This document shows positions 45,542-62,980 of a DNA stretch of 64,000 nt, one piece after another. The notes below the pieces were generated by a model. That model was not told the origin of the DNA, searched no databases, and was given only the letters and a program-made list of their open reading frames with translations. Where the stretch lies: assembly GCF_002163625.1 (NCBI RefSeq), contig NZ_CP020892.1:2914001-2978000 (forward strand), in the 5' to 3' direction. Within the stretch, counting starts at the first letter, position 1; each line of letters opens with the position of its first letter. This stretch comes from Pseudomonas sp. M30-35 (GTDB lineage Bacteria; Pseudomonadota; Gammaproteobacteria; Pseudomonadales; Pseudomonadaceae). A program made the translations under genes and the position numbers.

Positions 45542-46339
45542 TTAATCTGTGCCCGCCTTAGGTTTGCTACCCGCGGAATCTGTCGTAAGCCATTGCAGCG
45601 TAGCGTCGCACGCGGTGGACCAAGGCCGACTCACCTCATGCTTTCGAAGCAACTCGACACCCCTGTCGGTGAAAGTACCCGGCGAAGCGATAGCCCGGCC
45701 CATGGCAGCCAAGCCTGCATCCGGCTGGTGTTTAGCGCTGGCAAGGCAGTCCTGCATATTGCTCAGCACCAGCTGTTTTGCTTGGGCTTCTGGCATTCCT
45801 TGATCGACGAACCATTGCTGAAGATCTTGTAGCCAGAAATAAAACCAGCCATTCATGCACGCTGCAACAGTCGCCAGTTCAAAAGCACCCTCGTCGTCCA
45901 GCAAAATCGAGGCTCCCAGTGGCGCCATACATTGCTCAACAAGATCGTTGTGCGGGTAGATCACAACCGTGGTGCTGTTGATCTCGGCAGCATAGGAAAG
46001 CATTACTCGAACTACTTGCGCGTCGGGAAAGTGTTGCGCCAATGAAGCTAACGTCATACCTGCGACCACTGATATCAAGGTCTTACCAGGCGCCACCGTC
46101 ACTTCTTCGGCAAGCTGCCCAACTACGTCGGGGCGAACGCCGAGGATAACAATATCCGAGTGATCAATTACCGATTGGTTGTCTGGCATCACCTGGCAAT
46201 CAGACTCGTCAGACAATGCCTGCGCACGCTGCTGGTTACGCGGAGACAGTCTTATAGCGCCGCTGTAACCGCTCCGACGCAAGCCGCGAACGACCTTCTC
46301 AGTGAGCGCCCCTACTCCCAAAACCCCGATGCTTTGCAT
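45542..46339 (-). CDS. Pyrroline-5-carboxylate reductase-like NAD(P)-binding protein
   Basis: 265 aa from the ATG at 46339. N-terminal Rossmann fold (MQSIGVLGVGALTEKVVRGL), NVILGVRP-type segment (DIVILGVRPDVVGQLAEEV), LISVVAGMTLASLAQHF, and a C-terminal helical domain (AQAKQLVLSNMQDCLASAK; AIASPGTFTDRGVELLRKHE) that matches the ProC dimer region with the SPGGTT-type loop altered to SPGTFT. It likely reduces a cyclic imino acid, matching the D-amino acid oxidation genes beside it. The frame runs 81 codons further upstream without homology, so I reject that longer start. Confidence 0.82.
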   Translation of the reverse strand: MQSIGVLGVGALTEKVVRGLRRSGYSGAIRLSPRNQQRAQALSDESDCQVMPDNQSVIDHSDIVILGVRPDVVGQLAEEVTVAPGKTLISVVAGMTLASLAQHFPDAQVVRVMLSYAAEINSTTVVIYPHNDLVEQCMAPLGASILLDDEGAFELATVAACMNGWFYFWLQDLQQWFVDQGMPEAQAKQLVLSNMQDCLASAKHQPDAGLAAMGRAIASPGTFTDRGVELLRKHEVSRPWSTACDATLQWLTTDSAGSKPKAGTD

Positions 46340-46600
46340 GTACCCCCCCAACACTGTGGTTTGTTCAAATTTCAGTGTCACACATTTGCGCAAGGGCTTG
46401 GGACTGATGCGCCGAGTGCACTTCAGTTCGGCATCATTCTTCGTGCCCCACTGGGCCCATTCTGAAGCGCAATGGCAAGTTTCTCCGCTAGCTCGATGAC
46501 GCCCCAGTACTACACCTGAGGCTACACCCGGGCTTTTCTGCTTGGCATAAAACACATAACATACATACGATTCGTATATCAAACATATAAGGAATTACTG

Positions 46601-46813
46601 ATGGGCATTGTCAATATAGAAGATGATTTACACGATCAAGTGCGCAAGGCAGTCAAGGTTTCATATCGCTCAATCAACGCACAAGCGGCCTACTGGATCC
46701 GGGTCGGCATGTTAAGTGAGATGAACCCAACGCTCAGCTTCAATCAAATCATGGCGCGCGAGCTCGAGACTGCCGGTATTGCCAGCCCAGCACTGATGGT
46801 GAGTGAAGTATGA
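46601..46813 (+). CDS. ParD-like antitoxin/ribbon-helix-helix family protein
   Basis: 70 aa. MGIVNIEDDLHDQVRKAVKV, then SYRSINAQAAYWIRVGMLSE, resembles the ParD-like (PF11903-type) family of small DNA-binding or adaptor proteins. It overlaps the following methionine aminopeptidase gene by four bases (ATGA), and this pair recurs in proteobacteria. No ParE toxin is present. Possibly an autoregulator of the pair; function otherwise unknown. Confidence 0.8.
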   Translation: MGIVNIEDDLHDQVRKAVKVSYRSINAQAAYWIRVGMLSEMNPTLSFNQIMARELETAGIASPALMVSEV

Positions 46814-47583
46814 TCAAGCAGCCTCAAGAGCTGGCATTGTTAGCCGAGTCTGGGCGGCTGCTCGCGTTGGTGTTCGAAATGCTCGATCAAACGCCACTCA
46901 CCGGCATGTCAACGCTTGAAATCGATGCACGGGTCGAGAGATTCATCGTCGATGAGCTTCAGGCCCGCCCTGCCAGCAAGGGTCAATATGGCTACGGGTT
47001 CGTGTTGAATTGCTCGGTGAATGATGTGGTCTGCCACGGCGTGCCATCGCCATCAAAAGTGCTTCAGGATGGCGACATTATTAACCTCGACATCACCCTC
47101 GAAAAAAACGGCTATATCGCAGACTCCAGCAAAACCTATCTGATTGGCGAGGTCAGCCCAGCCGCCAAAAAGCTGGTTGAGGTCACCTACGAAGCTATGT
47201 GGAAAGGTATTCGAGCGGTTCGCCCAGGAGCGCGGCTTGGGGATATCGGCTCAGAAATCGAGAGCCACGCCAAGCGCAACGGCTATTCTGTGGTACGTGA
47301 ATACTGTGGCCATGGCATCGGCCGAGAGATGCATGAAGCGCCACAGGTGCTGCACTTCGGCACACCGGGGACTGGCCTTGTGTTGCAGGAAGGCATGGTT
47401 TTTACGATCGAGCCAATGCTCAATCAAGGCAAACGAGCGGTCAGGACTAAAGCCGACGGTTGGACTGTTGTGACCAAAGACGGCGCACTTTCCGCGCAGT
47501 TCGAGCACACCGTTGCGGTCACGGCTGACGGTGTATCAGTGCTGACCCTACGCCCGGATGAGCTCGACATGGTTAGCCGCTGA
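46810..47583 (+). CDS. map: Type I methionine aminopeptidase (second copy, ParD-linked)
   Basis: 257 aa. Pita-bread fold with metal ligands visible in NLDITLEKNGYIADSS (two Asp), GHGIGREMHEAP (His), TIEPML (Glu) and QFEHTVAVT (Glu). VCHGVPS is the substrate-His region. It removes N-terminal Met from nascent proteins. Since essential map genes in Pseudomonas usually lie beside rpsB/tsf, this is probably an accessory copy, translationally coupled to the ParD-like gene. Confidence 0.92.
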   Translation: MIKQPQELALLAESGRLLALVFEMLDQTPLTGMSTLEIDARVERFIVDELQARPASKGQYGYGFVLNCSVNDVVCHGVPSPSKVLQDGDIINLDITLEKNGYIADSSKTYLIGEVSPAAKKLVEVTYEAMWKGIRAVRPGARLGDIGSEIESHAKRNGYSVVREYCGHGIGREMHEAPQVLHFGTPGTGLVLQEGMVFTIEPMLNQGKRAVRTKADGWTVVTKDGALSAQFEHTVAVTADGVSVLTLRPDELDMVSR

Positions 47584-47749
47584 AAGTTGTCATCCGGGTG
47601 ATAACAACTGGACGATGCCGTCATTGGCAATCGGCAGTTTTATCCTCAAGCAGGCGTTTAGAATAGGCAAGATAAAGGCGTTCGCTGTAAGTTACATCGA
47701 TCAACCGTTATGCAGTCTGTAGCCACGAAATAAGGAAACTTGCGAGAAC

Positions 47750-48922
47750 ATGCTCAGTAAAAACCGCTTTGGAGTTGTGCTGTTAACCAGCACCTTATGG
47801 ACGTTTGGTAGCGGTTATTGCCTCGCGTCGAACCCGTCGTCGAGCGCATTGAAAACGTCTGTGGACGCAATCATTCAGCCGCTCATGCAAAGCCAGGATG
47901 TTCCCGGTATGGCCGTGGCGGTGCTCGTCGATGGCAAGGCTCATTACTTTAGCTACGGCGTTGCATCCAAAGCCGATAAGCAGCCTGTGACGCCAAACAC
48001 ACTCTTCGAAATCGGCTCGGTCAGCAAAACGTTCACCGCAACACTCGCCGGCTACGCTGTCGCACAAGATGCATTGTCGTTGTCGAATAACGCCAACCAT
48101 TACGTGCCGCAATTACACGGCAGTGCTTTTGACAATATCAGCGTGCTTAACCTGGGGACCTATACCGCAGGCGGGCTGCCATTGCAGTTTCCGAATGAAG
48201 CGGACGCCGCAGACAAGATGATGGGCTACTACCAACAGTGGCAACCAAGGTTTGCGCCCGCTGAGCAACGGCTGTATTCGAACCCAAGCCTGGGCCTGTT
48301 TGGTTACGCGGCGGCCAAGAGCCTTGGCCAGCCGTTTGACGACTTGATGGAAAAAACGTTGTTTCCCAAATTGGGGCTGAAGAGCAGCTACATTGAGGTT
48401 CCACAGGATCAAATGAGCCGCTACGCCCAAGGCTATACAAAGGATAATAACCTTGCCAGAGTCGGCCCGGGCGCAATGGCATCGCAAGCCTATGGCGTGA
48501 AAACTACCGCCGAGGACTTGCTGCATTTTGTCCGTTTGAACCTGCAACCGCAGGCGCTCGAGCCTGCACTGAAAAAGGCAATCGACCTAACGCAAACCAG
48601 CTATTACCAAGCCGGGCAGCTTACCCAAGGCCTCGGCTGGGAGCTATACACCTACCCAGTTGCGCTAAACACCTTGCTATCGGGGAACTCATCGCAGATG
48701 GCGCTTGAGCCACATAAGGCCAACTGGTTTGAAACGCCACGCCCGCCACAGGCGAATTCGTTGATTAACAAAACCGGCTCGACCAATGGCTTCGGTGCTT
48801 ACGTCGTCTATATCCCGGCAAAACAAATTGGCATTGTTCTGCTGGCGAACAAGAATTACCCGATCCCAAGCAGAGTCAAAGCTGCTTATGAGCTGCTCAG
48901 CGTATTGGACACAGACAGGTAG
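47750..48922 (+). CDS. ampC: Class C beta-lactamase (AmpC family)
   Basis: 390 aa. Signal peptide (GVVLLTSTLWTFGSGYCLA). Active-site motifs: Ser90-Val-Ser-Lys93 in EIGSVSKTFTA, Tyr176-Ser-Asn178 in LYSNPSLG, Lys341-Thr-Gly343 in NKTGSTNGFGAYV. GYTKDNNLARVGPGAM and SYGVKTTAEDLL-like stretches are also typical of AmpC. A periplasmic serine hydrolase of penicillins and cephalosporins. No ampR gene is adjacent, so the inducible AmpR switch common in P. aeruginosa and enterobacteria is not visible here; expression may be constitutive or controlled from a distance. Confidence 0.93.
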   Translation: MLSKNRFGVVLLTSTLWTFGSGYCLASNPSSSALKTSVDAIIQPLMQSQDVPGMAVAVLVDGKAHYFSYGVASKADKQPVTPNTLFEIGSVSKTFTATLAGYAVAQDALSLSNNANHYVPQLHGSAFDNISVLNLGTYTAGGLPLQFPNEADAADKMMGYYQQWQPRFAPAEQRLYSNPSLGLFGYAAAKSLGQPFDDLMEKTLFPKLGLKSSYIEVPQDQMSRYAQGYTKDNNLARVGPGAMASQAYGVKTTAEDLLHFVRLNLQPQALEPALKKAIDLTQTSYYQAGQLTQGLGWELYTYPVALNTLLSGNSSQMALEPHKANWFETPRPPQANSLINKTGSTNGFGAYVVYIPAKQIGIVLLANKNYPIPSRVKAAYELLSVLDTDR

Positions 48923-49063: not shown

Positions 49064-49510
49064 TTACGTTGATACGGGGGCCAAGTGCCCCAAATGAACC
49101 GATGTTTTAGGCAGTACCGGGCTGAAGGTATGACGAGTGGTTTTGTAGGGAAAAATCTCTCCGCGATTGAGCGTGTCGAAAATTTTCCGCACATCAAAAC
49201 AAGCACCGGTGCGCCAGTCATGCACACAAACACGTGGGTCATCATAATCGAGCTCGATACACGGGATTGTTTCGAAACCCAGCACTTTAGCCACAGTGAA
49301 CCGATGGTTTCCGTCCATCACAATACCGCTCGCGCGTTCCACAACAATGGGCTCTAACCAGCGCCCCTCTCGAACGATTGAACGAGCCAGTCGCTGGACA
49401 CACTGAAGGTCTACCCGCTCGGACTGCCGAACATCGACCAAGGGCCTCAAAACGACATCATAGAACTCGCGGCTGCATGTTTTTGCCGCCAAAATACATT
49501 TCCTATGCAT
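49064..49510 (-). CDS. ParB/Srx-fold protein, SbnI/SerK-like (putative L-serine kinase)
   Basis: 148 aa. VVLRPLVDVRQSERVD, QRLARSIVREGRWLEPIVVE, SGIVMDGNHRFTVAKVLGFE and IPCIELDYDDPRVCVHDWR match the ParB-like proteins that include SbnI and SerK, in which the D-G-x-H-R loop binds nucleotide. Those enzymes phosphorylate L-serine to O-phosphoserine. It is shorter than staphylococcal SbnI (about 254 aa), lacking the C-terminal portion. The ATG at 49510 has AGGGGA eight bases upstream and lies 31 bases after the CitE-like stop, so they form an operon. Its role in feeding the SbnA-like enzyme is inferred from family and location. Confidence 0.78.
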   Translation of the reverse strand: MHRKCILAAKTCSREFYDVVLRPLVDVRQSERVDLQCVQRLARSIVREGRWLEPIVVERASGIVMDGNHRFTVAKVLGFETIPCIELDYDDPRVCVHDWRTGACFDVRKIFDTLNRGEIFPYKTTRHTFSPVLPKTSVHLGHLAPVST

Positions 49511-49541
49511 GCTTATTCCCCTGAAAATATTGAATAAGGCG

Positions 49542-50420
49542 CTATTGGCGGCGACGGTCGTGGGCCTGTGAGAAGGCTTTAATACGCTCGGCATGTTCGA
49601 TCAGCGGCAGGTCGACCATCTTTCCGTCGATCTTAATCGCATGATTCTCGCAGGCAGCTGCTTGCAGAACCTTATCCGCCCAGTTGAGTTGACTGGCATC
49701 AGGAAGCAGGCAGGCATGCACGGTATTCAATTGCTGAGGATGAATACATAGCTTGGCCGCAAACCCGAGGCTTCTTGCGTATCTCGTGTCTTCCATCAAC
49801 ACCTGATCGTCGTGAATCTCTGGGGTCACGCCATCAATGGGCGCTGGCAATCCAGCATTGCGTGAAGCCAGAACAATCTGACTGCGCGCCAGCAGAAATG
49901 CTTGCGGAGATTGTGCGCAGTTAACGTCCAGCGAGTAATCGAGTGAGCCAAATGCCAGGCGGCTCACACCTGCAAGCAGCGCAATAGCCTGAACGTTCTG
50001 CACCCCTCTTGCCGTCTCGATGATCGCGACAATACGCAGGTTCGGGTTCCACTCCAGCAGGCGTTCAATGACCGGACGAAGCAATGTTGGGTCTTCGGCT
50101 TTGGGCAAAAAAATCCCTGTACAGCGGTCCGCATGGCGCATGTCACGCAACCACGCCATATCTTCGCGCAAATAAGGGCTGAGCATCCCGTTGATACGAA
50201 TGTAACGCTCGCTGAAAGTCGACGGTGTACTTTCGTGCCAAGCCAGTACAGCGGTTCTCGCTGCGGCTTTACTCTGCGGATGCACCGCATCCTCAAGATC
50301 AAGAATGATTGCATCAGGTTTTGCTTCTACACCCTTGGCAAACCGTTCCGCCCTATTCCCAGGAATGAACAAATAAGTAAGTGGTTGCTCCATTTGAGCT
50401 AAGCATGCGTCGTTTTTCAT
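49542..50420 (-). CDS. HpcH/HpaI aldolase (CitE/SbnG-like) family protein
   Basis: 292 aa TIM-barrel lyase: YLFIPGNRAERFAKGVEAKP, AIILDLEDAVHPQSKAAART (metal-binding acidic residues), RYIRINGMLSPYLREDM and GIFLPKAEDPT, followed by AIIETARGVQNV and CIHPQQLNTVHACL, the CitE-type order. In staphyloferrin B loci the HpcH/HpaI protein SbnG makes citrate from oxaloacetate and acetyl-CoA, and this gene sits at the corresponding position. It may supply citrate or cleave a CoA ester; sequence alone does not decide. Leftward gene sharing a control region with the siderophore operon. Ribosome site AAGGATC precedes the ATG. Confidence 0.85.
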   Translation of the reverse strand: MKNDACLAQMEQPLTYLFIPGNRAERFAKGVEAKPDAIILDLEDAVHPQSKAAARTAVLAWHESTPSTFSERYIRINGMLSPYLREDMAWLRDMRHADRCTGIFLPKAEDPTLLRPVIERLLEWNPNLRIVAIIETARGVQNVQAIALLAGVSRLAFGSLDYSLDVNCAQSPQAFLLARSQIVLASRNAGLPAPIDGVTPEIHDDQVLMEDTRYARSLGFAAKLCIHPQQLNTVHACLLPDASQLNWADKVLQAAACENHAIKIDGKMVDLPLIEHAERIKAFSQAHDRRRQ

Positions 50421-50846
50421 GATTCTGATCCTTGGCGAGCTTCGATAATGGATAACTGATCAAACCCTTCTCGACCGGCATATGGCTGGTAACTGCAGCC
50501 AATCCTTGGAGCACTTCGTTTCTACCTCCCCCGGGGAAAAGCACAGGAATTGAAATACTCGAAAACTATAGTTGATTATCATTCGCATTATCAATACGAT
50601 TCTCATCTAGCAAATTGGCAACTTCTAGCTCATGGCTGTTTAGCCCGGCTTTCTTAACAACAGTGATGTTGGCCAGAAATGGCGTCGCCCTATCACCTCA
50701 GTACCAACAGGATGACTGGTATGCACTTGTTCAAAATTGGTAATTCGCGTGATCGTGTTCGCCACCCCGAGGTACGCCCCAGCAGCTCCGATCTGCTAGC
50801 AAGTCAGTGGCTACTTAACGTTTCTTGCACGCTGGGGAGCTAGGAG
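50421..50846. promoter_or_regulatory. Divergent promoter region of the siderophore locus
   Basis: 426 bases between the leftward CitE/SbnI-like pair and the rightward biosynthetic operon. It contains the Fur-box-like sequence listed separately. No coding frame here looks real; a 63-codon minus-strand frame overlaps the CitE start and is rejected. Confidence 0.7.
50574..50592. promoter_or_regulatory. Fur box upstream of the siderophore operon
   Basis: GATTATCATTCGCATTATC agrees with the 19-base Fur consensus GATAATGATAATCATTATC at 14 of 19 positions by eye. An overlapping AT-rich extension (to about 50605) contains further partial repeats. Its place between the two divergent operons would let iron-loaded Fur repress both. 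Confidence 0.75.
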
Positions 50847-52238
50847 ATGCCGAGAACTCCTGAACTCTCTTCGCGAGTTGTTAATGCACATTCGCCGACG
50901 CAACTTGAGCCTTTGATAGACCCGATTATTGAGCAGTTTATTTATGAAACCCCTGACAGGCTTTTACGTCTGGTCGAAGAGCATGGCTCGCCACTTAATA
51001 TCGTCTGGCCCCACGCTATGCGGGAAAATGTGGAGCACATGTGCTCAGTTCTGCGGGCTCACAATCTAGGTTTTGAAATTTTTTATGGGGCCAAGGCAAA
51101 TAAATCACATGCACTGATTCGTACCGCCATCGAGGCCAAGATCGGCGTAGACGTTTCAAGCCTTTATGAATTCCAAGACGCTCTGGCGGCGGGAGGTTGC
51201 GCCACGCGGCTGTGTGCAACCGGACCGGCAAAGACCGAGGCGTTTCATCAAGCGCTTATCTTGAGAGGCGCATTGATCAGCGTCGACTCGCTGGAAGAGT
51301 TCGAGCATCTGCATGCAACCGCACTGAATCTAACCAGCGGCTTACGCGCTAAAGTTTTACTGCGCTATCGACCTCAAGACGCTCTAACAAGTCGTTTCGG
51401 CATGGGCAAAAAGGAGTTATCGGAGTGCCTGCGTCGCATCACGCAATCGCCCGTGATCGAGTTTGATGGTTTTCACTTCCATCTCAGTGGTTATCGCTGT
51501 GAAGACCGTGCTCAGGCATTCAGGGAAATCGTGCCCTTTATCGATGAGGCCCGAGTCTTAGGCCTGTCACCTCGCATGATTGATATCGGTGGGGGCCTGC
51601 CGATGCAATATGTAGATAAAGATATCTTTGAGTCATTCTTAAAAAACCAGCATCTGCCCCGCCACTACCACGGCAATCAAATACCCAACTCTTTCTATCC
51701 CTACGGTACGCAGATAAACCCCAGCCTGTGGCTGCAACAGTTACTAAACACCTGTGTTGCGCCTGAGCAATCTGTCGCCCAGTACCTTCAAGCGCAGGAC
51801 ATTATTCTGGCGCTAGAACCGGGTCGGAGCCTGGTCGATCAAGCCGCAATTTCGCTGTTCAGGATTACCCGAGTTAAGCACCTTGAGGACGCGAAATATG
51901 TGCTGTTTGTCGAGGGCAGTAGCTTCAGCGCGTGTGAGACCTGGTTCAACTCTGAATTCATGCTCGACCCCATTCTGATCAGCACCCAATCAGCGTCGTC
52001 TGCAAGCCCCACGCAGGCATATATCGCCGGCCATAGCTGCCTGGACGATGACGTTCTTAGCCGACGCTTCATTCCATTTCATGTCACCCCACAAACCGGC
52101 GACCTGTTGGTTTATGTCAACACCGCTGGGTATCAAATGGACTTACTGGAAAACCAATTTCATCGCCACCCGCATCCCACGCGGATAACCGCAACTTGCA
52201 ATGCAGACAACCACCTTACGTTTTCACCTGACTACTAA
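50847..52238 (+). CDS. Type III-fold PLP-dependent decarboxylase (SbnH/LysA-like)
   Basis: 463 aa. Alanine-racemase-fold barrel with PLP Lys83 in FEIFYGAKANKSHAL, then HFHLSGYRCED (His stacking on PLP), DIGGGLPMQYV (glycine loop), ALEPGRSLVDQ and the C-terminal VEGSSFSACETW and YVNTAGYQMDL. This belongs to the decarboxylase family that includes SbnH (citryl-diaminopropionate decarboxylase) and vibrioferrin PvsE. Likely removes a carboxyl from a diaminopropionate or serine adduct. GGGGAG lies seven bases upstream of the ATG. First gene of the biosynthetic operon; SbnA-like starts 12 bases after it. Confidence 0.88.
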   Translation: MPRTPELSSRVVNAHSPTQLEPLIDPIIEQFIYETPDRLLRLVEEHGSPLNIVWPHAMRENVEHMCSVLRAHNLGFEIFYGAKANKSHALIRTAIEAKIGVDVSSLYEFQDALAAGGCATRLCATGPAKTEAFHQALILRGALISVDSLEEFEHLHATALNLTSGLRAKVLLRYRPQDALTSRFGMGKKELSECLRRITQSPVIEFDGFHFHLSGYRCEDRAQAFREIVPFIDEARVLGLSPRMIDIGGGLPMQYVDKDIFESFLKNQHLPRHYHGNQIPNSFYPYGTQINPSLWLQQLLNTCVAPEQSVAQYLQAQDIILALEPGRSLVDQAAISLFRITRVKHLEDAKYVLFVEGSSFSACETWFNSEFMLDPILISTQSASSASPTQAYIAGHSCLDDDVLSRRFIPFHVTPQTGDLLVYVNTAGYQMDLLENQFHRHPHPTRITATCNADNHLTFSPDY

Positions 52239-52250
52239 AGGGAGCGCTTC

Positions 52251-53294
52251 ATGATACTTAATAAAGTTTCAGGTCTGATCGGCAATACCCCAATGCTCGC
52301 CCTATCCATCCCGGACACCGCTTCCAGGTTGTTATTGAAAATAGAAAAAAATAATCCGGGTGGCAGCATGAAGGACCGGATGGCCCGAAATATGGTGCTG
52401 GCCGCTTTAAAGTCAGGTCGCCTGAAGCGTGGCGGCGTCATTATCGAATCCTCATCTGGAAATACCGGCATCGGTCTGGCCATGACGGCCGTGGAGTTCG
52501 GCTTACAGTTCATCGCCGTGGTCGACCATCACGCAGCCCAAGACAAGATTGCAGTGATGAAAGCCTTAGGCGCTGATGTGCGCTTTGTGTCCGGCACCTA
52601 TCAAGAAGACGAAGTCGCCGTTGTCGAGCGGCAACGGCTGGCTGCGGAACTGGCGATGGAGATACCCGGAGCGGTGTTTATGAATCAATCCGATAACGCT
52701 GCTAATGCCGGTGGTTATTCGGATTTCGTCCGCGAAATCGTTGCACAGGTTGATGGGAAAATTGATGCCTATGTCGGCTGCGTTGGCACGGGTGGTTCAA
52801 TGACAGGCATTGCTCGCGGCCTGAAGCTACACAACTCGGATGCGGTCATGGTCGCCGTCGAACCCGCAGGCTCGATTGTCTTCGGCCAGCCCGGTTACCC
52901 CTATTACCAATCCGGGACTGGCACACCAGCAGGCGACACTGTAGGCCTGGTGCTGGACTACAGCTGCATTGACTTAGGCATGCAAGTCACAGACTCCCAG
53001 GCATTCGAAACCGCACGCTACATCGCCCGTAATACAGCGCTATTGGTCGGAGGTTCAACGGGAGGCGTCATCTACAAGGCACTGGAGCTTGTGCACAAAG
53101 GCGTGATCGGCGGCAACGTCGTTGTTCCGGTAGCCGACGGTGGTGAGAAATACCTGCATACGGTGTTCAACGATAGCTGGCTTGAAGCAAGAGGTTTAAC
53201 CGACCAGCACGTCTGGAGCCAGTTGGATGACTGGCTGGGCACTGCACATTTGCTCGAATACGCCTCCCCTACTCTTCAGTTGAATGTCGCGTGA
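52251..53294 (+). CDS. sbnA: SbnA-like PLP enzyme, N-(2-amino-2-carboxyethyl)-L-glutamate synthase family
   Basis: 347 aa. Cysteine-synthase fold with PLP Lys41 in NNPGGSMKDRMARN, SSSGNTGIGLAM (about residues 67-78), GCVGTGGSMTGIARGLK, and the SbnA-typical VAVEPAGSIVFGQPG and VADGGEKYLHTVFNDSWLE near the C-terminus. SbnA condenses O-phosphoserine with glutamate to give ACEGA, the precursor of L-2,3-diaminopropionate. An SbnI-like kinase in the same locus could provide the phosphoserine. Its end overlaps the next gene by four bases (GTGA), showing tight coupling to the opine-dehydrogenase-type protein. General cysteine synthase function is less likely because of this context. Confidence 0.88.
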   Translation: MILNKVSGLIGNTPMLALSIPDTASRLLLKIEKNNPGGSMKDRMARNMVLAALKSGRLKRGGVIIESSSGNTGIGLAMTAVEFGLQFIAVVDHHAAQDKIAVMKALGADVRFVSGTYQEDEVAVVERQRLAAELAMEIPGAVFMNQSDNAANAGGYSDFVREIVAQVDGKIDAYVGCVGTGGSMTGIARGLKLHNSDAVMVAVEPAGSIVFGQPGYPYYQSGTGTPAGDTVGLVLDYSCIDLGMQVTDSQAFETARYIARNTALLVGGSTGGVIYKALELVHKGVIGGNVVVPVADGGEKYLHTVFNDSWLEARGLTDQHVWSQLDDWLGTAHLLEYASPTLQLNVA

Positions 53295-54466
53295 GCCCTG
53301 CACAGGAGTACACCCCATTGGCTAAATTAAACGTCGTTATATGTGGCGCAGGCAGAACCGGACACCTCAACGCGATTCTGTTCAAGCAACATCAAAACAT
53401 TCATGTCTCGTTGCTGACCAACAACCTTGAAGTTGTCGACAAGCACACACGTAAAATCAAGATGAATGCGATCTTGCCTGATGCAAGCAGGCTTATCGGC
53501 CAGCCGGATATCGTCACCAATGATGCACGACTCGCAGTGCAGGACGCCGACATTGTTGTCATCACCGTACCCGCCAATGCGCGCACTGAAATACTCAGAG
53601 CCATTGAGCCTCATCTGCCCTCACACAAACCCGTTTACGTCGGAGCGATACCAGGGTTCTGCGGATTTGACTGGCTGGCCCAGGCAACATTCATAAACCG
53701 ACCCAATGTGGTCATCTGGGGAATGAAGGATGTGCCTCACACCGCCTTCGACCTCGTGCCCGGTGAGTCGGTGAAGATGGGTGGCGGTAAGAGCCAACTC
53801 TATATAGCCACTCATGCGCGTGAAACCGCCCACTCACGAAGCGCGCTGCTGGGTTATCTCACAACCTTATACGGGCCGTGTGTGATCTTGCTGGACAACT
53901 ATCTCGAAATAACCCTGACGCCTGGAAATCCGATTATGCACAGCTCGGTTATCTACGGTTTGATCGGTCCTTACGGCCAATGGCACCAGCGAATTTTCCC
54001 CGAGCGCATGTGTTGGTGGAATGAATGTCCGGAATTAGGCGCTTACTTTCTCGAGCGCATGGATGAGGAAAGTCAGCATCTATGTAAGGCGGTAAGCGAA
54101 CACTTGGGGCTCGACCTTTCTTCGGTAAAACCCCTCAAGCAGGAAATCGTCGAAGCCTACGGATCGCAGATTTTCGACTCGGGCACCATGCTCTCAATTT
54201 TACGCACCAACCAGGCCTACAACTCAATATTGGCGCCTATGGTTCCGGCAGGCGACAACCGACCTGGCTATGTGATTGAGCGTGAAAGCCGAGCATTCAA
54301 CGAGGACGTGGCCTACGGCCTGGTATTACTGGTTGAAATGGCCAGACGTCTAGAGCTGAAAGTACCGCACATCGAAGAGGTACTGAACTGGAGTGTTTCG
54401 TACATGCAGGGCCTACGCGACTCGGCGCTGGATTATTTCCCGAGCACATGGCCACACAGCGCCTGA
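53291..54466 (+). CDS. Octopine/opine dehydrogenase family protein (in the SbnB position)
   Basis: 391 aa. N-terminal NAD(P)-binding fold LNVVICGAGRTGHLNAILFK, DADIVVITVPANARTEIL, VYVGAIPGFCGFDW; C-terminal octopine-dehydrogenase domain with LEITLTPGNPIMHSS (including the conserved NPxxH) and the helical FLERMDEESQHLCKAVSEHL. The family catalyses reversible NAD(P)H-dependent reductive condensation of amino acids with 2-oxo acids. ACEGA is formally an opine of diaminopropionate and 2-oxoglutarate, so this enzyme could oxidise it and release diaminopropionate, replacing SbnB (different fold). Start: GTG at 53291 overlapping sbnA, or TTG at 53327 after GGAG. Direction of reaction is inferred. 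Confidence 0.85.
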   Translation: MSPAQEYTPLAKLNVVICGAGRTGHLNAILFKQHQNIHVSLLTNNLEVVDKHTRKIKMNAILPDASRLIGQPDIVTNDARLAVQDADIVVITVPANARTEILRAIEPHLPSHKPVYVGAIPGFCGFDWLAQATFINRPNVVIWGMKDVPHTAFDLVPGESVKMGGGKSQLYIATHARETAHSRSALLGYLTTLYGPCVILLDNYLEITLTPGNPIMHSSVIYGLIGPYGQWHQRIFPERMCWWNECPELGAYFLERMDEESQHLCKAVSEHLGLDLSSVKPLKQEIVEAYGSQIFDSGTMLSILRTNQAYNSILAPMVPAGDNRPGYVIERESRAFNEDVAYGLVLLVEMARRLELKVPHIEEVLNWSVSYMQGLRDSALDYFPSTWPHSA

Positions 54467-54504
54467 CACCACTTTTTCTGCCATTACGAGAGCGGACCTA
54501 AACT

Positions 54505-56361
54505 ATGCAAGCCTTGAACGATACGATGGAATTCTCACGCCACAATGCCCTGCGCCGACTGATCCGCTGCCTATTTGCCGAAGGTATTCTCGATCGATCC
54601 CAGCTGATCGTCAGCGAGGATGGACACTCGGCAACCTTCCCTTTGCCAGACGCGACTCTGCTTTTTGAACGCATCCAAATGGCCCCGGCGAATACCGTTT
54701 GCAACGACGGCGAAGTTGTCTTGATCGACGCGAAACACGCTACACGCGTGCCTATCCGAACCCATCAACAATTGATTGATGCTCTGCGCTCAAGCTTCGA
54801 CTTTTCGCCCACAGATGAAGGCGTGGAAGGCCTAAAAGCCGACGTCGAAAACAGTGTCCAAAACGACATTCAGGCCAGACAGTATCGGCACGGTTGGAAC
54901 CAACAATTGGCCGCAGCGGCACGCACCACTGGACTTGGCTTCAGCGACTATCTGCGACAACATTGCAGCACCCAAGATGCCGCGATCTTGCTGGACCAAT
55001 GGGGCTCTCTTGAAGGACATCCCTACTACCCGACATGGAAGGCCCGTCCCGGCATGACGCCTGAAGAGGTCGAACAGTTTTCACCAGAGTTCAATGCCAA
55101 GGTAACCTTGCGTATTGCCGCCTTGCGCGCAGATATGCTGGCATCTGAGTCGATGCCTCACGTACGCGACTATCACAGCTGGTTCGCCAGTCAGTACCCC
55201 GCCCACTGGCAACGCTGGAAGGCCGCACTCAACGCCCGAGATCTGAACGAAAATGAGTGGTGGCCGTTGCCGATCCACTCCTGGCATTTAAACAACTATG
55301 TGCTCAGTACCTATGCAGCAGAAATCGAAGAAGGCATCTTAATAACAGAAGGCCCGGATATCGAAACGCTTCCAACCATGTCGTACCGCACCATGATGCC
55401 TGCCCAGGCGGGTGGCGCGCCGTTGATCAAGCTGCCGATAGCCGTATGGATGACCAGTGAGCAACGCAGCTTGCAGGCCAAATCAATCCACATGGGCCCC
55501 AGAATCAGTAAAGTGATCACACAAATTCTCGAAGCCGAAAACAGCTTTGATCAATCCTTGGAAATTTTCCCAGAGGAAATTGGCCTGCGCTTCAAACATG
55601 CCGTGACTCAGGACGACAACCCAGGCAAGCATCTGTCTGTGGTCTTTCGCCGCAGCCGCGAAGCGTTTGAGCGCACCGACCAAGGTCTACCGATCACGGT
55701 AGCCAGTCTGTTCACGCGCTTACCGCAGACTGAGCGACCACTGTTTACCGACCTGATCGAACGTGACGGAACACTGGCGACCCATGAGCAGGTCACAACC
55801 TGGTTCGCCCAGTACTGCAAAGTAGTGACCCACCCGGTTATCGCAATTTATATGCTGTACGGTATCGGACTCGAAGCTCACCAACAGAACACCATGATTG
55901 TGTTCTCGCCAGACGGCATCGCCCGCAGCGTGTTGATCCGCGACTTCGGCGATGGACGCACCTATGCACCGTTGCTGGAAGCACGCGGACATCGCCTGGC
56001 CCCTCATATCCAGCCGGGCATACTGCCCACTGTGTTCAGCGATGATATCGAACCGGTTCGCATGTTCGTTATCGACGCCTGCTTCCTGAGCCATCTACAT
56101 GAAATGGCGTTGGCCTTGAGCCGTGAATATGCGATAGAAGACACTCGTCTATGGGACATTCTGAGCGAACAGACACAACACGCATTCGCTGCCATCAAGG
56201 ACCGTGTTGACCCAAGCTTCTGGGATACCGAGCATAGAGCGTTTCTGCTCGAACCCTGGCCAACACGCTCACTGTTGAGAATGCACCTGCTCAAGTACTC
56301 TGATTACAGGCTGCAACACACCCTGACCAACCCACTCAGCACATCCGCTTTGCGAGGCTAA
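54505..56361 (+). CDS. IucA/IucC family siderophore synthetase (NIS synthetase)
   Basis: 618 aa, normal family length. Seen: LEGHPYYPTWKARPGM (usual HPxHPxxKxR, with the second His replaced by Tyr), SYRTMMPAQAGGAPLIKLPI, AVWMTSEQRSL (ATP-binding region), VVFRRSREAFERTDQGLP, and YGIGLEAHQQNTMIVFSPDG with catalytic-loop RDFGDGRTY. These enzymes adenylate a carboxyl group (citrate or a citryl intermediate) and form an amide or ester with an amine or hydroxyl. It is the only NIS synthetase in the window, whereas staphyloferrin B needs three. Starts 38 bases after the opine dehydrogenase stop. Confidence 0.93.
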   Translation: MQALNDTMEFSRHNALRRLIRCLFAEGILDRSQLIVSEDGHSATFPLPDATLLFERIQMAPANTVCNDGEVVLIDAKHATRVPIRTHQQLIDALRSSFDFSPTDEGVEGLKADVENSVQNDIQARQYRHGWNQQLAAAARTTGLGFSDYLRQHCSTQDAAILLDQWGSLEGHPYYPTWKARPGMTPEEVEQFSPEFNAKVTLRIAALRADMLASESMPHVRDYHSWFASQYPAHWQRWKAALNARDLNENEWWPLPIHSWHLNNYVLSTYAAEIEEGILITEGPDIETLPTMSYRTMMPAQAGGAPLIKLPIAVWMTSEQRSLQAKSIHMGPRISKVITQILEAENSFDQSLEIFPEEIGLRFKHAVTQDDNPGKHLSVVFRRSREAFERTDQGLPITVASLFTRLPQTERPLFTDLIERDGTLATHEQVTTWFAQYCKVVTHPVIAIYMLYGIGLEAHQQNTMIVFSPDGIARSVLIRDFGDGRTYAPLLEARGHRLAPHIQPGILPTVFSDDIEPVRMFVIDACFLSHLHEMALALSREYAIEDTRLWDILSEQTQHAFAAIKDRVDPSFWDTEHRAFLLEPWPTRSLLRMHLLKYSDYRLQHTLTNPLSTSALRG

Positions 56362-56364
56362 TTC

Positions 56365-57612
56365 ATGTTCCGTGCAGGTGCCTCTCAAGGTTCTCGTATC
56401 ACTATCCTGATCTATTTGCTGTTCGTGATTCAGCTGGTGTCCATGGGAGCCATGGAAATGAGTGGGCCATTCTGGCCAGTGTACCTGCGGGGACTGACAA
56501 CCTCAGATTCGCTGTTCAGTTTCGCCAGCATCGCAGTCTATGTCGGCCCAATGCTCGGCATCATGCTCACCAGCACCTTGTGGGGCCGGATTGGGGATCG
56601 TTACGGCCACAAGCTGATGATGATTCGGGCATTGGCTGGGCTTTCCCTGACGCAGCTGGGTCTCGCGTTGTCGAATGATATCGCCGTGATTTTGCTGCTG
56701 CGTTTCATCCAGGGAGCCTGTGCTGGCTACATTGCGCCAGCACAGGCCTATGGCGTGAGTATCGAAACTCCGGCACGTCGGGCTCGCCTGTTTGCAATCC
56801 TGCAAATATCAACCAATGTCGGCTCCTTACTCGGTGCAGTGGTGGGTGGTCTGATCCTCGATTACACCAACTTTTTCTGGATCAATATCAGCGCAGCAGT
56901 GATATGCGCGATCTGCACAGTGGTAGCTGCACTGACATTGCCGGATGTTGCTCCCGTGAAAAAAACGCTGCCTGCAACCGAGCAAGCTGTTGCCCCCCAA
57001 AACCTGTGGCGGAACAAGCACATGTTGTCGCTGCTCGGCGTCATGGGCATTCTTTTGCTGGCCCGCATGCTCCCGCAAACCTCTTTCTCGTTGTATGTCA
57101 GCTCTATCTTTGAGGTGAATAATTCGATTGTTGGGCTTTGCTACGGATTGCTGGCCATGGGCTTCATTTTGTCAGCAACCGCATGGTCCAGGCACTTCGA
57201 ACACCTATCCAAAGCCGACACATTGAAGCGCATCAGCTATGTGGTCATCGCCTGTGCCGTGCTTACCGCTCTGGCGGGCATGACGCGTCAGCCGCTGCTG
57301 TTCATTGCCGCCTATTTTGTCTGGGGTGTTTTGTTAGGAGCAACCACTCCAGTGCTGATGGCCTTGATATCGAAAACCGCGGATAACACCCAGCAAGGTC
57401 ACGTGCTGGGCATCGCCCAAAGCATTTCGCAGTTCGCCTCCATTGCCGGGATTTGCGTAGGAGGATTGCTGAGCCAGATCTATGGCCTGCAATACATCTA
57501 TTACTTTGTCGCCATTGCCTATTGCATTGCGATGCTACCGATTCTCGCACTTCGGTACTGGCCCACTATGACCGCTCCAGAACAAGTATCACCGAGCAAA
57601 CAGGCCCCCTAA
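56365..57612 (+). CDS. MFS transporter, putative siderophore exporter (SbnD-like)
   Basis: 415 aa with 12 predicted membrane segments. Motif A between segments 2 and 3 (GRIGDRYGHKLMMIRALAGL) and the related internal repeat are visible. Multidrug-type MFS proteins of this length in NIS clusters (SbnD, PvsC) export the finished siderophore. It starts four bases after the synthetase stop and precedes the aminotransferase gene by 29 bases, clearly within the operon. Substrate assignment rests on context. Confidence 0.9.
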   Translation: MFRAGASQGSRITILIYLLFVIQLVSMGAMEMSGPFWPVYLRGLTTSDSLFSFASIAVYVGPMLGIMLTSTLWGRIGDRYGHKLMMIRALAGLSLTQLGLALSNDIAVILLLRFIQGACAGYIAPAQAYGVSIETPARRARLFAILQISTNVGSLLGAVVGGLILDYTNFFWINISAAVICAICTVVAALTLPDVAPVKKTLPATEQAVAPQNLWRNKHMLSLLGVMGILLLARMLPQTSFSLYVSSIFEVNNSIVGLCYGLLAMGFILSATAWSRHFEHLSKADTLKRISYVVIACAVLTALAGMTRQPLLFIAAYFVWGVLLGATTPVLMALISKTADNTQQGHVLGIAQSISQFASIAGICVGGLLSQIYGLQYIYYFVAIAYCIAMLPILALRYWPTMTAPEQVSPSKQAP

Positions 57613-57641
57613 ACCTGCAATCTACCCGCACGAGGATCGCC

Positions 57642-58826
57642 ATGCTCGACCTATTGAAGTTACGCACAGACACGCCCGGCACTCTGCAGGTCATTCACCT
57701 CAACAGTGCTGGAGCCTCGCTAACTGCCACCCCGATACTTGATGTCGTCACCCGACATTTGCACAACGAGGCTTATTTGGGCGGCTATGAAGCAGCAGCA
57801 GCTGCAGCTCCAGAACTCGAAGCTGTGTATGTTTCGATTGCCCGACTGATCAACGCCGAGACCCGTGAGATTGCCGTTATCGAGAACGCCACTCGGGCCT
57901 GGGATATGGTGTTCTATGCGATCCCCTTCAAGCCCGGTGACGTCATCCTGACTTCGACCACCGAGTATGCCGGTAACTACATTCCCTACCTGCAACTCAA
58001 GCAGCGCTACGGCATAGAGATCGAAGTGATCCCTAACGACGAAACCGGCCAGGTCTCGTTATCAGCGCTGCAAACAAGGCTGAACCGGCCCGGCGTGGTG
58101 CTGGTGTCTCTGCCTATCATCGCTACAAACGGAGGCCCGATTCAGCCGGTGGTACAGATCGGAAAACTGTGTCGCGAAGCCGATGTGTTGTTTCTGCTCG
58201 ACGCCTGCCAAGGTGCCGGCCAACTGCCACTCGATGTAAAAGAGATCGGCTGTCACATGCTCACCGCAACGAGTCGTAAATACTTGCGGGGGCCGCGGGG
58301 CATGGGATTTTTATACGTTGAAAAAGATCTCTGTGAGCGTCTGGAACCGCCTTTTCTCGACCTGCACTCGGCTTCGCTGCTGACTGCCAGCAGCTTTAAA
58401 ATCCGCGAGGGCGCCCGCCGTTTTGAAAACTGGGAATGCAATATCGCCGCGAAACTCGGCTTAGGAGCGGCGACTGACTATGCGCTTGATGTAGGCCTAG
58501 ACCAGATATGGCAACGTATTCAGTCGCTGGCGACGTACCTGCGCCAATCCATATCGCAAACCCAAGGCTACAGCCTCCAGGATATGCCCGCGGCCTGTTC
58601 AGGCATCGTTACATTTACCTCGCAACAACATGGTTCTGCGCAATTGCAGAAGCGCCTGAGCACCGAGCCAAAACCGATCAACGTGTCGACCTCCGGCATG
58701 TACTCAACGCTGATCGACATGCAGCAACGCGGTTTACATGAAGTGACCCGCGCATCTGTTCATGCCTACAACACCGAAGAAGAAATCGATAAGTTCATCG
58801 ACGCCTTGAAACGCTTGGCGCAGTAA
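57642..58826 (+). CDS. Class V aminotransferase (cysteine desulfurase-like fold)
   Basis: 394 aa. AYLGGYEAAAAAAPELEAVY and VIENATRAWDMVFYAIPFK at the N-terminal part; LLDACQGAGQLPLDVKEIGC, with the PLP-stacking Asp; PLP-lysine in TATSRKYLRGPRGMGFLYVE. This is the isopenicillin-N-epimerase/desulfurase-like branch of class V enzymes. There is no obvious desulfurase active-site Cys loop. In this operon it may modify a diamino acid or supply an unusual amine or oxo acid, but staphyloferrin B synthesis has no counterpart, so the role is unknown. Start ATG 57642 has GAGGA six bases upstream. Confidence 0.88.
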   Translation: MLDLLKLRTDTPGTLQVIHLNSAGASLTATPILDVVTRHLHNEAYLGGYEAAAAAAPELEAVYVSIARLINAETREIAVIENATRAWDMVFYAIPFKPGDVILTSTTEYAGNYIPYLQLKQRYGIEIEVIPNDETGQVSLSALQTRLNRPGVVLVSLPIIATNGGPIQPVVQIGKLCREADVLFLLDACQGAGQLPLDVKEIGCHMLTATSRKYLRGPRGMGFLYVEKDLCERLEPPFLDLHSASLLTASSFKIREGARRFENWECNIAAKLGLGAATDYALDVGLDQIWQRIQSLATYLRQSISQTQGYSLQDMPAACSGIVTFTSQQHGSAQLQKRLSTEPKPINVSTSGMYSTLIDMQQRGLHEVTRASVHAYNTEEEIDKFIDALKRLAQ

Positions 58827-58889: not shown

Positions 58890-58908
58890 GAGAATGATTA
58901 TCACTAAT
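58890..58908 (+). promoter_or_regulatory. Fur box upstream of fecI-type sigma gene
   Basis: GAGAATGATTATCACTAAT matches 14 of 19 positions of the Fur consensus by eye and ends 11 bases before the sigma factor ATG. It lies where the promoter of a Fur-repressed iron-starvation sigma factor is expected. Confidence 0.75.
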
Positions 58909-58919
58909 AAAATAATCCA

Positions 58920-59438
58920 ATGACTGATTCTTTCCCATCCACCTATGAGCATCACCTGCGCAACGTCGAGGTTCTCTACAGCGAGCATCAGGGCTGGCTG
59001 TATGCGTTTTTGCAAAAAAAAATAGGTAACACGATGGATGCGGCGGACCTGATGCAGGACACGTTCATCCGAATCCTGGCCGCCAAGTCACTGCCGATTA
59101 TTGAAGAGCCGCGGGCTTATTTGAGCTGTATCGCAAAAGGTATCCTCGTCAATTGGTACCAACGCAAGGCCCTCGAACGAGCCTACCTCGCCGCCTTGGC
59201 AGAGCTTCCCGAAGAACATGTGCCTTGTGCAGAAAGCAGCTTGATCATTCTGGAAACACTCCATGAAATTGACGCCATGCTTAACGCCTTGCCGCCGCTG
59301 GTGAAGCGCACTTTTCTACTGTCACAGATTGCCGGCATGAAGTATGCGGACATAGCCCAAGAGATCGGGGTGTCGCTGATCACGGTCAAACGCTATATGA
59401 AGCAAGCATTCATTCAGTGCCTGGCGGTCATGGAATAA
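58920..59438 (+). CDS. FecI-type ECF sigma factor (iron starvation)
   Basis: 172 aa. Sigma region 2 (LYSEHQGWLYAFLQKKIGNT, then DLMQDTFIRIL) and region 4 (LPPLVKRTFLLSQIAGMKYA, then VSLITVKRYMKQAF) are intact. FecI-type factors direct RNA polymerase to TonB-receptor genes after surface signalling. The stop codon overlaps the anti-sigma start (TAATG). Expected partner of the following FecR-like protein and STN receptor. Confidence 0.95.
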   Translation: MTDSFPSTYEHHLRNVEVLYSEHQGWLYAFLQKKIGNTMDAADLMQDTFIRILAAKSLPIIEEPRAYLSCIAKGILVNWYQRKALERAYLAALAELPEEHVPCAESSLIILETLHEIDAMLNALPPLVKRTFLLSQIAGMKYADIAQEIGVSLITVKRYMKQAFIQCLAVME

Positions 59439-60421
59439 TGTCGTCTTCTTATCTTAAAGATAACGCGCCCATTGACCCTGTGATTCTGGAGGAAGCAGCG
59501 GAATGGCTGATGCGCTTGAGTGCTGGATCCATCACCGATCAAGACCATATTCAATGGCAACATTGGCGCGCTAAAAGCACAGAACATGAGCGGGCCTGGA
59601 ACCGTGCAGAGCGGCTGCTGGGTAAGCTAGGCAACATTCCGCATTCACTGGCGATGCCTGCATTGGACCGCCCTGCCAACCCTCAACGCCGTGCGGCTTT
59701 GGGCCGTCTCGCGACAATACTGACGGTCGCACCCGTGGCGTGGCTTGTTTGGCAGTTAAACGAAACTCAAGGCTGGACCGCTGATTATCGCTCCTCCATC
59801 GGTGAACGTCGCAGCCTCGCGATGGAAGATGGCACCCAACTGACACTTAATAGCGATACCGCTATTGATGTTCAATTTGACGACTTCGAGCGTCTAATTG
59901 TCTTGCGTCATGGTGAGATTCTCACCCAAACCGCACCGGATACCCACTCCCCTACACGCCCCTTCCGGATCAATACCGCGCAAGGGCAAATGGAGGCACT
60001 GGGCACCCGTTTCAACGTACGCGGAGAATCCAGTCAAACACGTTTGGCCGTGTTGGAGGGAGCCGTCAAAGTGACGACGGCCGCTAGCAACGGCGATGAC
60101 AGCATCATTGTTAATGCCGGACAAAGTTTGGACTTCAGCGCTCACACCGTCGGTAAACTCAAGGTGGCCGACAGCACTCTGACCACCTGGACACAAGGCA
60201 TGCTGGTGGCCGACGCAATGCGTCTGGATGCCTTCATCGATGAGCTTTCCCGCTATCACCGAGGCTTCATACGCATAGAGCCCGCGCTTGCCGGGTTGCG
60301 CATATCTGGAGCCTTCCCCGTAGACGACACCCCGCGCGTCTTGAGCATGCTGGCGTCAACCTACTCACTCAAAGTGACTACACACATGAATGGTTATTGG
60401 GTGTTGCTGGCGGCTGCTTGA
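59438..60421 (+). CDS. FecR-type anti-sigma/transmembrane signal transducer
   Basis: 327 aa. N-terminal DUF4880-like cytoplasmic domain (VILEEAAEWLMRLSAGSITD, then WQHWRAKSTEHERAWNRAE), one membrane segment (LATILTVAPVAWLVWQL), and a periplasmic FecR domain (LGTRFNVRGESSQTRLAVLE) ending in a small STN-like C-terminal part (GAFPVDDTPRVLSMLASTYS). It relays ligand binding at the outer-membrane receptor to FecI. The ATG at 59438 overlaps the sigma stop by one base. An ATG seven codons earlier in frame lies inside fecI and is less likely. Confidence 0.94.
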   Translation: MSSSYLKDNAPIDPVILEEAAEWLMRLSAGSITDQDHIQWQHWRAKSTEHERAWNRAERLLGKLGNIPHSLAMPALDRPANPQRRAALGRLATILTVAPVAWLVWQLNETQGWTADYRSSIGERRSLAMEDGTQLTLNSDTAIDVQFDDFERLIVLRHGEILTQTAPDTHSPTRPFRINTAQGQMEALGTRFNVRGESSQTRLAVLEGAVKVTTAASNGDDSIIVNAGQSLDFSAHTVGKLKVADSTLTTWTQGMLVADAMRLDAFIDELSRYHRGFIRIEPALAGLRISGAFPVDDTPRVLSMLASTYSLKVTTHMNGYWVLLAAA

Positions 60422-62947: not shown

Positions 62948-62980
62948 GTTATGGCGTTCTGCAATCCACGGAGTATATAC

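Follow-up and report, generated by a model that had tools for sequence, protein, structure and literature searches.

We analyzed a 64,000-nucleotide stretch of the genome of Pseudomonas sp. M30-35 (positions 2,914,001 to 2,978,000 of a 4.93 Mb single-contig genome), hereafter the window, which contains, from position 49064 to past its end, a siderophore locus with one nonribosomal peptide synthetase (NRPS)-independent siderophore (NIS) synthetase. Judging by the sequence, we consider it likely that this locus makes a rhizobactin-type siderophore, mainly rhizobactin B. With somewhat less confidence, we propose that it represents the missing genes for rhizobactin and rhizobactin B, a NIS/opine hybrid in which a SbnA-type enzyme would build ethylenediamine on lysine before capping by an opine dehydrogenase. 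This same proposal, which we regard as probable, holds that the related clusters known as pbt and y4x and those of Pectobacterium, Burkholderiales, Thalassospira, and rhizobia all make rhizobactins, that those with a citramalyl-CoA-lyase-like gene make rhizobactin B and those without it malate-rhizobactin, and that proteobactin is rhizobactin B.

A Published Rhizobactin Producer Carries the Same Gene Set

According to the accessible text of the paper describing it, Pseudomonas sp. FEN produces rhizobactin and the more abundant rhizobactin B, both identified by high-resolution mass spectrometry and nuclear magnetic resonance (PMC7676072). Rhizobactin is made of alanine, ethylenediamine, lysine, and malate units, and in rhizobactin B citramalic acid replaces malic acid (PMC7676072). 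We found that FEN carries the whole gene set of the window cluster, including the citE-like and class V genes, with open frames and in the same order. Its opine dehydrogenase aligns without gaps to that of the window (74% identity), and its cluster receptor (~810 residues, 90.1% like that of P. batumici) fits an entry of the published FEN receptor list that has 811 residues and is 90% like P. batumici (PMC7676072). The FEN locus (L084) and the FEN genome that we scanned (G168) are the same record, with 389 of 398 sampled 50-mers shared and the others lying past the end of the locus. This draft genome (40 contigs) is 99% complete with 4% contamination. It contains a single match to PF04183 (IucA/IucC synthetases) and a single match to PF02317 (opine dehydrogenases), both inside the cluster. 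Since an acid–lysine amide and an N-carboxyethyl opine end are chemistries that rhizobactin needs, the finding that FEN has genes for both only in the cluster supports the assignment. Mass balance of the route proposed below gives [M+H]+ of 378.1871 for C15H27N3O8 and 392.2027 for C16H29N3O8, and the reported masses are 378.1866 for rhizobactin and 392.2020 for rhizobactin B (PMC7676072). FEN is the one published producer of rhizobactin and rhizobactin B in which we found the cluster.

The genome of the window strain also has one PF04183 match, the cluster synthetase, and one PF02317 match, the cluster opine dehydrogenase. An earlier sequence-only reading of this DNA had already recognized a single IucA/IucC synthetase, which the whole-genome count bears out. 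That reading also suggested that the siderophore is new, which it probably is not, because the rhizobactins are known and one published producer carries the cluster.

The published account differs from ours in crediting the FEN rhizobactin genes to homologues of rhbAB of rhizobactin 1021 (PMC7676072). Because the paper points to these genes and the FEN genome is a draft, one could imagine that FEN makes its rhizobactins with other genes and that the cluster makes something else, which we find extremely improbable. The rhizobactin 1021 route uses two synthetases, RhbC and RhbF, and would be unavailable in FEN because one synthetase gene was found there, inside the cluster. Moreover, rhbAB yield 1,3-diaminopropane, not ethylenediamine. 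Rhizobactin 1021 itself was ruled out as the product of the cluster, since its two synthetases compare with one IucA/IucC gene in the window genome and one in FEN.

The iron-ligand screen of FEN reported the two rhizobactins alone, and pyoverdine was not detected, as far as the accessible text of that paper goes (PMC7676072). Because of this, and because matches to PF13434 (ornithine hydroxylase) are short in both genomes, the rhizobactin-type product may be the main siderophore in FEN and in the window strain. The best PF13434 matches, 51 bits in FEN and 38 bits in the window genome, are partial and above the cut-off of 21, and no pyoverdine producer served as control.

Each Structural Unit Has a Candidate Gene

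For each rhizobactin unit (alanine end, ethylenediamine, lysine link, and hydroxy acid), the window offers one candidate gene from a family that fits. From gene content, conservation, single-copy status in FEN, and mass balance, we infer a six-step scheme, which leaves the order of the second to fifth steps free. All the genes named in the sequence-only reading are present on the strands it gave, with starts corrected for the SbnI-like and class V genes and possibly for the opine dehydrogenase.

The first step, conversion of serine to O-phospho-L-serine, would be carried out by a compact SbnI/SerK-like protein of 148 residues (49064–49510, minus strand), a predicted free-serine kinase. We moved its start from 49594 to 49510, directly after the citE stop. 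This protein matches no Pfam model, and its scores against the NCBIfam models SerK (39.5 bits, E 3.4e-10; cut-off 380) and SbnI (22.7 bits; cut-off 350) are far under the equivalog cut-offs. Among solved structures, all of its relatives are longer (242–256 residues), and it matches 1vk1 (E 1.8e-8) and SerK (5x0b, E 3.4e-6), with SbnI (5ujd) reaching just E 0.018. Glu31, found in at least 90% of 33 aligned homologues, aligns with Glu30 of SerK, which we take to be the catalytic residue, and the motifs D-G-x-H-R and K-x-T-R-H are invariant.

In the second step, a SbnA/cysteine-synthase-like pyridoxal phosphate (PLP) enzyme (52251–53294, plus strand) is predicted to join the three-carbon unit of phosphoserine to the alpha-amine of lysine, yielding N2-(2-amino-2-carboxyethyl)lysine. 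It matches the structures of SbnA (5d87, E 1.1e-38) and cystathionine beta-synthase (26fv, E 7.7e-49). Its score of 232 bits with the SbnA model, 118 bits under the cut-off of 350, is compatible with a nucleophile other than glutamate and does not point to lysine itself.

Loss of CO2 in the third step would give N2-(2-aminoethyl)lysine, i.e., the ethylenediamine unit, through a LysA-like PLP decarboxylase of the alanine racemase fold (50847–52238, plus strand). This protein is placed in the Y4yA family, a name taken from an annotated Sinorhizobium meliloti relative. It scores 115 bits with the lysA model (cut-off 298) and 51.5 bits with SbnH (6knh), the best stretch spanning residues 60–258, and the YgaK, EPGR, and AGHSC motifs (PLP and Cys) are kept across 79 aligned rows.

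The opine dehydrogenase (53291–54466, plus strand) would then reductively condense the free amine with pyruvate, generating the alanine end as an N-carboxyethyl group. It might start at a TTG codon at 53318, where the database version (P0001) begins. It matches PF02317 with 99 bits (cut-off 30), as well as octopine dehydrogenase (3c7a, E 2.3e-20) and CEDH (1bg6, E 5.2e-7). Of 81 aligned rows, at least 97% show the motifs LTPGN..MH and ED.A.G, and the conserved His/Asp region, when aligned to 3c7a and 1bg6, presumably holds the catalytic residues.

The last two steps concern the hydroxy acid. The single NIS synthetase (54505–56361, plus strand), with IucA/IucC (PF04183, 174 bits) and FhuF (PF06276, 114 bits) domains, is predicted to amidate the epsilon-amine of lysine with citramalate or malate. 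Citramalate, for rhizobactin B, would be supplied from acetyl-CoA and pyruvate by a CitE/RipC-like acyl-CoA lyase (49542–50420, minus strand), while malate from central metabolism would lead to the minor form, rhizobactin. The sequence-only reading labeled this gene SbnG/CitE-like. The CitE type holds, and the SbnG part does not, since none of its three model matches is named SbnG and it scores higher with RipC (162 bits; cut-off 375) than with CitE (123 bits; cut-off 443). Of solved structures, 9nzb and 8khl, both acyl-CoA lyase beta chains, are its best relatives (E ~1e-43). RipC is a C–C lyase of itaconate degradation that acts on citramalyl-CoA, and the proximity of the CitE-like protein to RipC therefore fits citramalate. 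Finally, export would be mediated by a FslB-like protein of the major facilitator superfamily (MFS) encoded at 56365–57612 on the plus strand (PF07690; NCBIfam FslB 189 bits, cut-off 600).

The Cluster Differs from Staphyloferrin B and Other Known Systems

The chemistry predicted for the SbnA-, SbnI-, and SbnH-like enzymes is common to staphyloferrin B, i.e., a serine kinase, a three-carbon unit from phosphoserine, and decarboxylation to diaminoethane. However, staphyloferrin B has three synthetases, whereas the window has one plus an opine dehydrogenase, and lysine is predicted in place of glutamate. When we looked for the SbnC, SbnE, and SbnF set, we found scores of 117 bits with SbnF (cut-off 900) and 96 bits with SbnC (cut-off 700). 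No protein of the window genome exceeds the SbnB cut-off (the best, outside the cluster, reaches 94 bits for a cut-off of 327), and none does in FEN. A SbnB-type search of the 80 related loci described below gave one weak match (26%, E 5.6e-5) at the sbnA position of locus L069; the queries were the longest open reading frames of loci L145 to L147, not all of which are surely the right gene. The sequence-only reading had described a NIS carboxylate siderophore locus that resembles staphyloferrin B synthesis without matching its cluster. We agree with the type of locus and with the mismatch, and we find the resemblance in synthesis unlikely, given how widely the Sbn models were missed and that no SbnB was found over cut-off.

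Could the cluster nevertheless make a citrate siderophore with diaminopropionate or diaminoethane, such as dicitryl-diaminoethane (m/z 409.11)? The opine dehydrogenase would then run in reverse and replace SbnB by freeing L-diaminopropionate. SbnA-, SbnI-, and LysA/SbnH-like genes do travel together, neither the window genome nor FEN has a SbnB over cut-off, and the synthetase and exporter are closest to FslA and FslB of rhizoferrin. Yet FEN carries the cluster and its screen, in the accessible text, reported just the two rhizobactins, the scores with the Sbn models fall far short, and the CitE-like protein resembles RipC more than CitE. This family of opine dehydrogenases has usually been studied in the reductive direction, which also counts against this possibility. 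A citrate siderophore is thus improbable: the staphyloferrin B/citrate reading is probably wrong because the Sbn models were missed, no SbnB exceeds its cut-off, and the gene set fits rhizobactins. For the same reason, of the citrate/diaminopropionate- or diaminoethane-type product suggested by the sequence-only reading, the diaminoethane unit possibly stands and the citrate/diaminopropionate part is unlikely. The opine dehydrogenase as a substitute for SbnB was our own first hypothesis, which we dropped because the FEN chemistry was better fitted by reductive capping.

Rhizoferrin made via FslA/FigA shares with the cluster the nearest named synthetase and exporter models and a decarboxylase of the same fold. 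When measured against the FslA and FslC equivalogs, however, the scores are 278 bits (cut-off 1000) and 22.8 bits (cut-off 500), respectively, and the rhizoferrin pathways described in the accessible text of PMC7857480 use putrescine or ornithine, with no phosphoserine-derived unit or opine dehydrogenase (the word "opine" does not occur there). In the opine metallophores staphylopine and pseudopaline, as predicted for the window cluster, the chain ends with a dehydrogenase linking an amine to a keto acid. The window cluster differs from them by its NIS synthetase and by the lack of any nicotianamine-synthase-like match among the ten proteins scanned. Two further candidates were rejected: phymabactin, which the accessible part of its source presents as an NRPS product, and the "sbn" cluster of Methylobacterium aquaticum 22A, which, as described in the accessible part of its source, is of another type with two iucA/iucC genes.

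The Gene Set Is Conserved in Pseudomonas and Widespread Beyond It

Using the synthetase as a query against 398 Pseudomonas genomes, that of the window strain included, we found full-length relatives with 68–71% identity in 23 genomes besides its own. In two further genomes, the synthetase is split over two contigs in one and present as a 91-residue fragment in the other. We fetched the loci of 20 of the 23 full-length carriers. In all 20, the ten genes that run from sbnI through fecR keep the same arrangement, and hence this arrangement is not due to chance. The receptor and binding protein genes are present in 19 of them, the contig of the remaining one stopping earlier. A different FslA-like synthetase, with 29–33% identity, occurs in 43 of the 398 genomes. 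In the seven such loci that we fetched (L053 to L059), an MFS gene adjoins the synthetase gene and no kinase, decarboxylase, or opine dehydrogenase was found; one weak SbnA-like match (34%) in L057 is the sole other match to a cluster gene.

The level of divergence within Pseudomonas bears on whether the window strain makes a relative of rhizobactin by the same logic, with one building block swapped. Lysine might, for instance, be replaced by ornithine, pyruvate by another keto acid, or citramalate by malate or citrate. In best local matches, the biosynthetic proteins of the window cluster share 51–84% identity with their counterparts in the other Pseudomonas loci, enough divergence to allow a change of substrate, and the window synthetase branches off first within the Pseudomonas group in the tree presented below. 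The gene set and order nevertheless equal those of FEN, including the citE-like and class V genes, and the opine dehydrogenases of the two strains align without a gap, as mentioned above. We therefore view a swapped block as rather unlikely, although the least unlikely of the alternatives, and favor rhizobactin B as the main product.

Outside the genus, a scan of 194 genomes of the order (that of the window strain included) for close matches to the opine dehydrogenase found one in the window strain only, 13 other genomes matching weakly with at best 22% identity, and an earlier scan of named genomes with the synthetase as a query gave no confirmed relative. When named genomes were scanned with an alignment of the opine dehydrogenase, 80 of 92 relatives were kept. 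These 80 loci come from Pseudomonas (23), Burkholderiales (16), Vogesella/Aquitalea (3), Enterobacterales (9), Thalassospira (3), Methylobacterium (1), other Hyphomicrobiales (2), and rhizobial-type bacteria (23). The opine dehydrogenase is present in all 80 by construction. The synthetase is found in 80, the SbnA-like enzyme, decarboxylase, and exporter in 79 each, the kinase in 74, the citE-like gene in 33, and the class V gene in 23. Two loci are truncated, L106 beginning inside the opine dehydrogenase gene and L067 stopping inside the synthetase gene. These counts define a core consisting of the kinase, SbnA-like enzyme, decarboxylase, opine dehydrogenase, synthetase, and exporter, the citE-like and class V genes being optional.

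Strong opine dehydrogenase relatives are also found on 42 plasmid records, 22 of them from Sinorhizobium, and the y4x locus of pNGR234a (Sinorhizobium fredii NGR234) has the same core genes. The NIS clusters named for Sinorhizobium in the accessible text of PMC12815270 include petrobactin and rhizobactin (cited with the rhizobactin 1021 reference), and this gene set is not mentioned in that text. In a plasmid-labeled record of Serratia marcescens, an IS5-like transposase gene lies directly before the cluster decarboxylase gene (L156:5805–6773).

A RipC-Like Gene May Separate Citramalate and Malate Forms

Malate-rhizobactin was first found in S. meliloti strain DM4, according to the accessible text of PMC7676072. 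We read the cluster in AK83, a different strain of the same species, whose plasmid pSINME01 carries the core genes; within the 19 kb that we viewed, a citE-like gene is absent. The presence or absence of the RipC-like gene would thus match the citramalate form in FEN and the malate form in S. meliloti. We built a tree from 79 cluster synthetases (one from the window and 78 from the set of 80 loci, after two short rows were dropped) and three outgroups. On it, possession of the citE-like gene needs a single change, and none of 500 shuffles was as low. The side of the tree with the gene comprises Pseudomonas, Enterobacterales, and Bosea.

Several points weigh against the rhizobactin assignment or its citramalate/malate extension. 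The branch leading to synthetases with the citE-like gene has a support of 0, and the absence of that gene was judged within the fetched stretches. Although 12 of 618 synthetase columns track the gene, so do 8 of 415 in the exporter, and the synthetase columns therefore prove nothing. The kinase was not found in six of the 80 loci, nor by profile within the fetched stretches. Among the enzymes, the SbnA-like protein scores equally with the cysteine synthase A and cystathionine beta-synthase models (233 bits each) and with SbnA. The keto acid used by the opine dehydrogenase, be it pyruvate or another, cannot be read from its sequence, nor can the hydroxy acid used by the synthetase, which among named models scores best with FslA, an enzyme that uses citrate. 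Finally, the class V enzyme has no place in the scheme, as we looked for a role in the pathway and found none.

This accessory class V PLP enzyme (57642–58826, plus strand; 394 residues from this better start) had been called an aminotransferase. Its class V assignment stands, but it is SufS/EgtE-like instead, scoring under the cut-offs with EgtE (175 bits) and SufS (168 bits) and matching a cysteine desulfurase structure (5b7s, E 7e-39). In four loci outside Pseudomonas (L089, L091, L120, and L156), the class V gene lies directly upstream of the SbnI-like kinase gene, hinting at a tie to phosphoserine chemistry. In Pseudomonas fragi F1801, the class V match covers 42% of the query, fecI comes early, and the gene looks shortened (L075:14375–15011), while L081 and L090 have no class V match and retain the other cluster genes.

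Proteobactin Is a Predicted Rhizobactin

This type of gene cluster is already known as pbt in Proteus mirabilis, where pbtA-I are assigned to proteobactin. In the P. mirabilis locus that we examined (L138), the order is permease, ATPase, reversed citE, synthetase, receptor, decarboxylase, SbnA-like gene, opine dehydrogenase, MFS gene, binding protein, and SbnI-like gene. All nine pbt gene types, i.e., NIS synthetase, decarboxylase, PLP enzyme, opine dehydrogenase, MFS protein, citrate-lyase-beta-like gene, receptor, binding protein, and a small hypothetical protein, have counterparts between the window and this locus. The pbt operon is described as including an "octopine/opine/tauropine dehydrogenase" and a "hypothetical protein" (PMC11026637), and the latter is the SbnI-like gene, as recognized in L138. 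The same paper places PbtA with Y4xN of S. fredii and predicts proteobactin to be a hydroxycarboxylate, with no structure stated in its accessible text (PMC11026637). The two loci differ in gene order, and that of the window has FecI/FecR and a class V gene in addition. Since the gene types match gene for gene, proteobactin is predicted to be of the rhizobactin type.

We saw no link between rhizobactin and this type of cluster, or proteobactin, among the open-access matches listed or in their accessible text; the search covered neither subscription papers nor preprints nor MIBiG and is no proof of absence. The link between rhizobactin and the pbt-type cluster thus appears to be the new part of this work. 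If true, it would join two orphans, the rhizobactins without correctly assigned genes and the widespread and genetically studied proteobactin/y4x cluster without a known product. It would also predict the structure of proteobactin, correct the published gene assignment in FEN, and allow one gene to tell producers of the malate form from those of the citramalate form. In addition, it would reveal an undescribed use of a SbnA-type enzyme, with lysine for glutamate, alongside an opine dehydrogenase in a NIS pathway.

Regulation, Uptake, and Neighboring Genes

The cluster is predicted to be repressed by Fur. The sequence-only reading placed it around a Fur box. We found two Fur-box-like sites, each matching 15 of 19 bases on the minus strand, while a stricter scan of the window, allowing up to three mismatches, found no match. 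The first site (50574–50592) lies between the divergent citE-like and decarboxylase genes, and its score was reached by none of 1,000 base shuffles of this 426-nucleotide gap. The second (58890–58908) lies upstream of fecI and stands without a shuffle control. A promoter-like site on the minus strand (50594–50565) overlaps the first Fur-box-like site; such sites are no commoner than in shuffled sequences.

Return of the ferric complex would rely on the receptor module that follows, which is present as initially described. On the plus strand, it consists of a FecI-type extracytoplasmic function sigma factor (58920–59438; 193 bits with PRK12528, above the cut-off of 184, and 168 bits with FecI, cut-off 260), a FecR-type anti-sigma/regulator (59417–60421; PF04773 and PF16220; FecR 269 bits, cut-off 385), a TonB-dependent siderophore receptor (60521–62947; PF00593 and PF07715), and a periplasmic siderophore-binding protein (62951–64000, continuing past the window end; PF01497). 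A FecCD permease and an ATPase follow beyond the window (L032, 2154–3973; PF01032 and PF00005), the receptor/ATP-binding cassette (ABC) part ending ~1.97 kb past the window end.

Upstream of the cluster (45542–48922) are a P5CR/ProC-like gene (45542–46582), a metallopeptidase M24 gene, methionine-aminopeptidase-like by eye (46810–47583), and a PF00144 beta-lactamase-family gene (47750–48922). Past the siderophore ABC genes (L032:4910–17000) lies a catabolic-looking set, by eye a hydroxyproline-type pathway, with two similar GntR-type regulators, proline-racemase-, aldehyde-dehydrogenase-, amine-oxidase-, and DapA-like genes, and an amino-acid ABC transporter.

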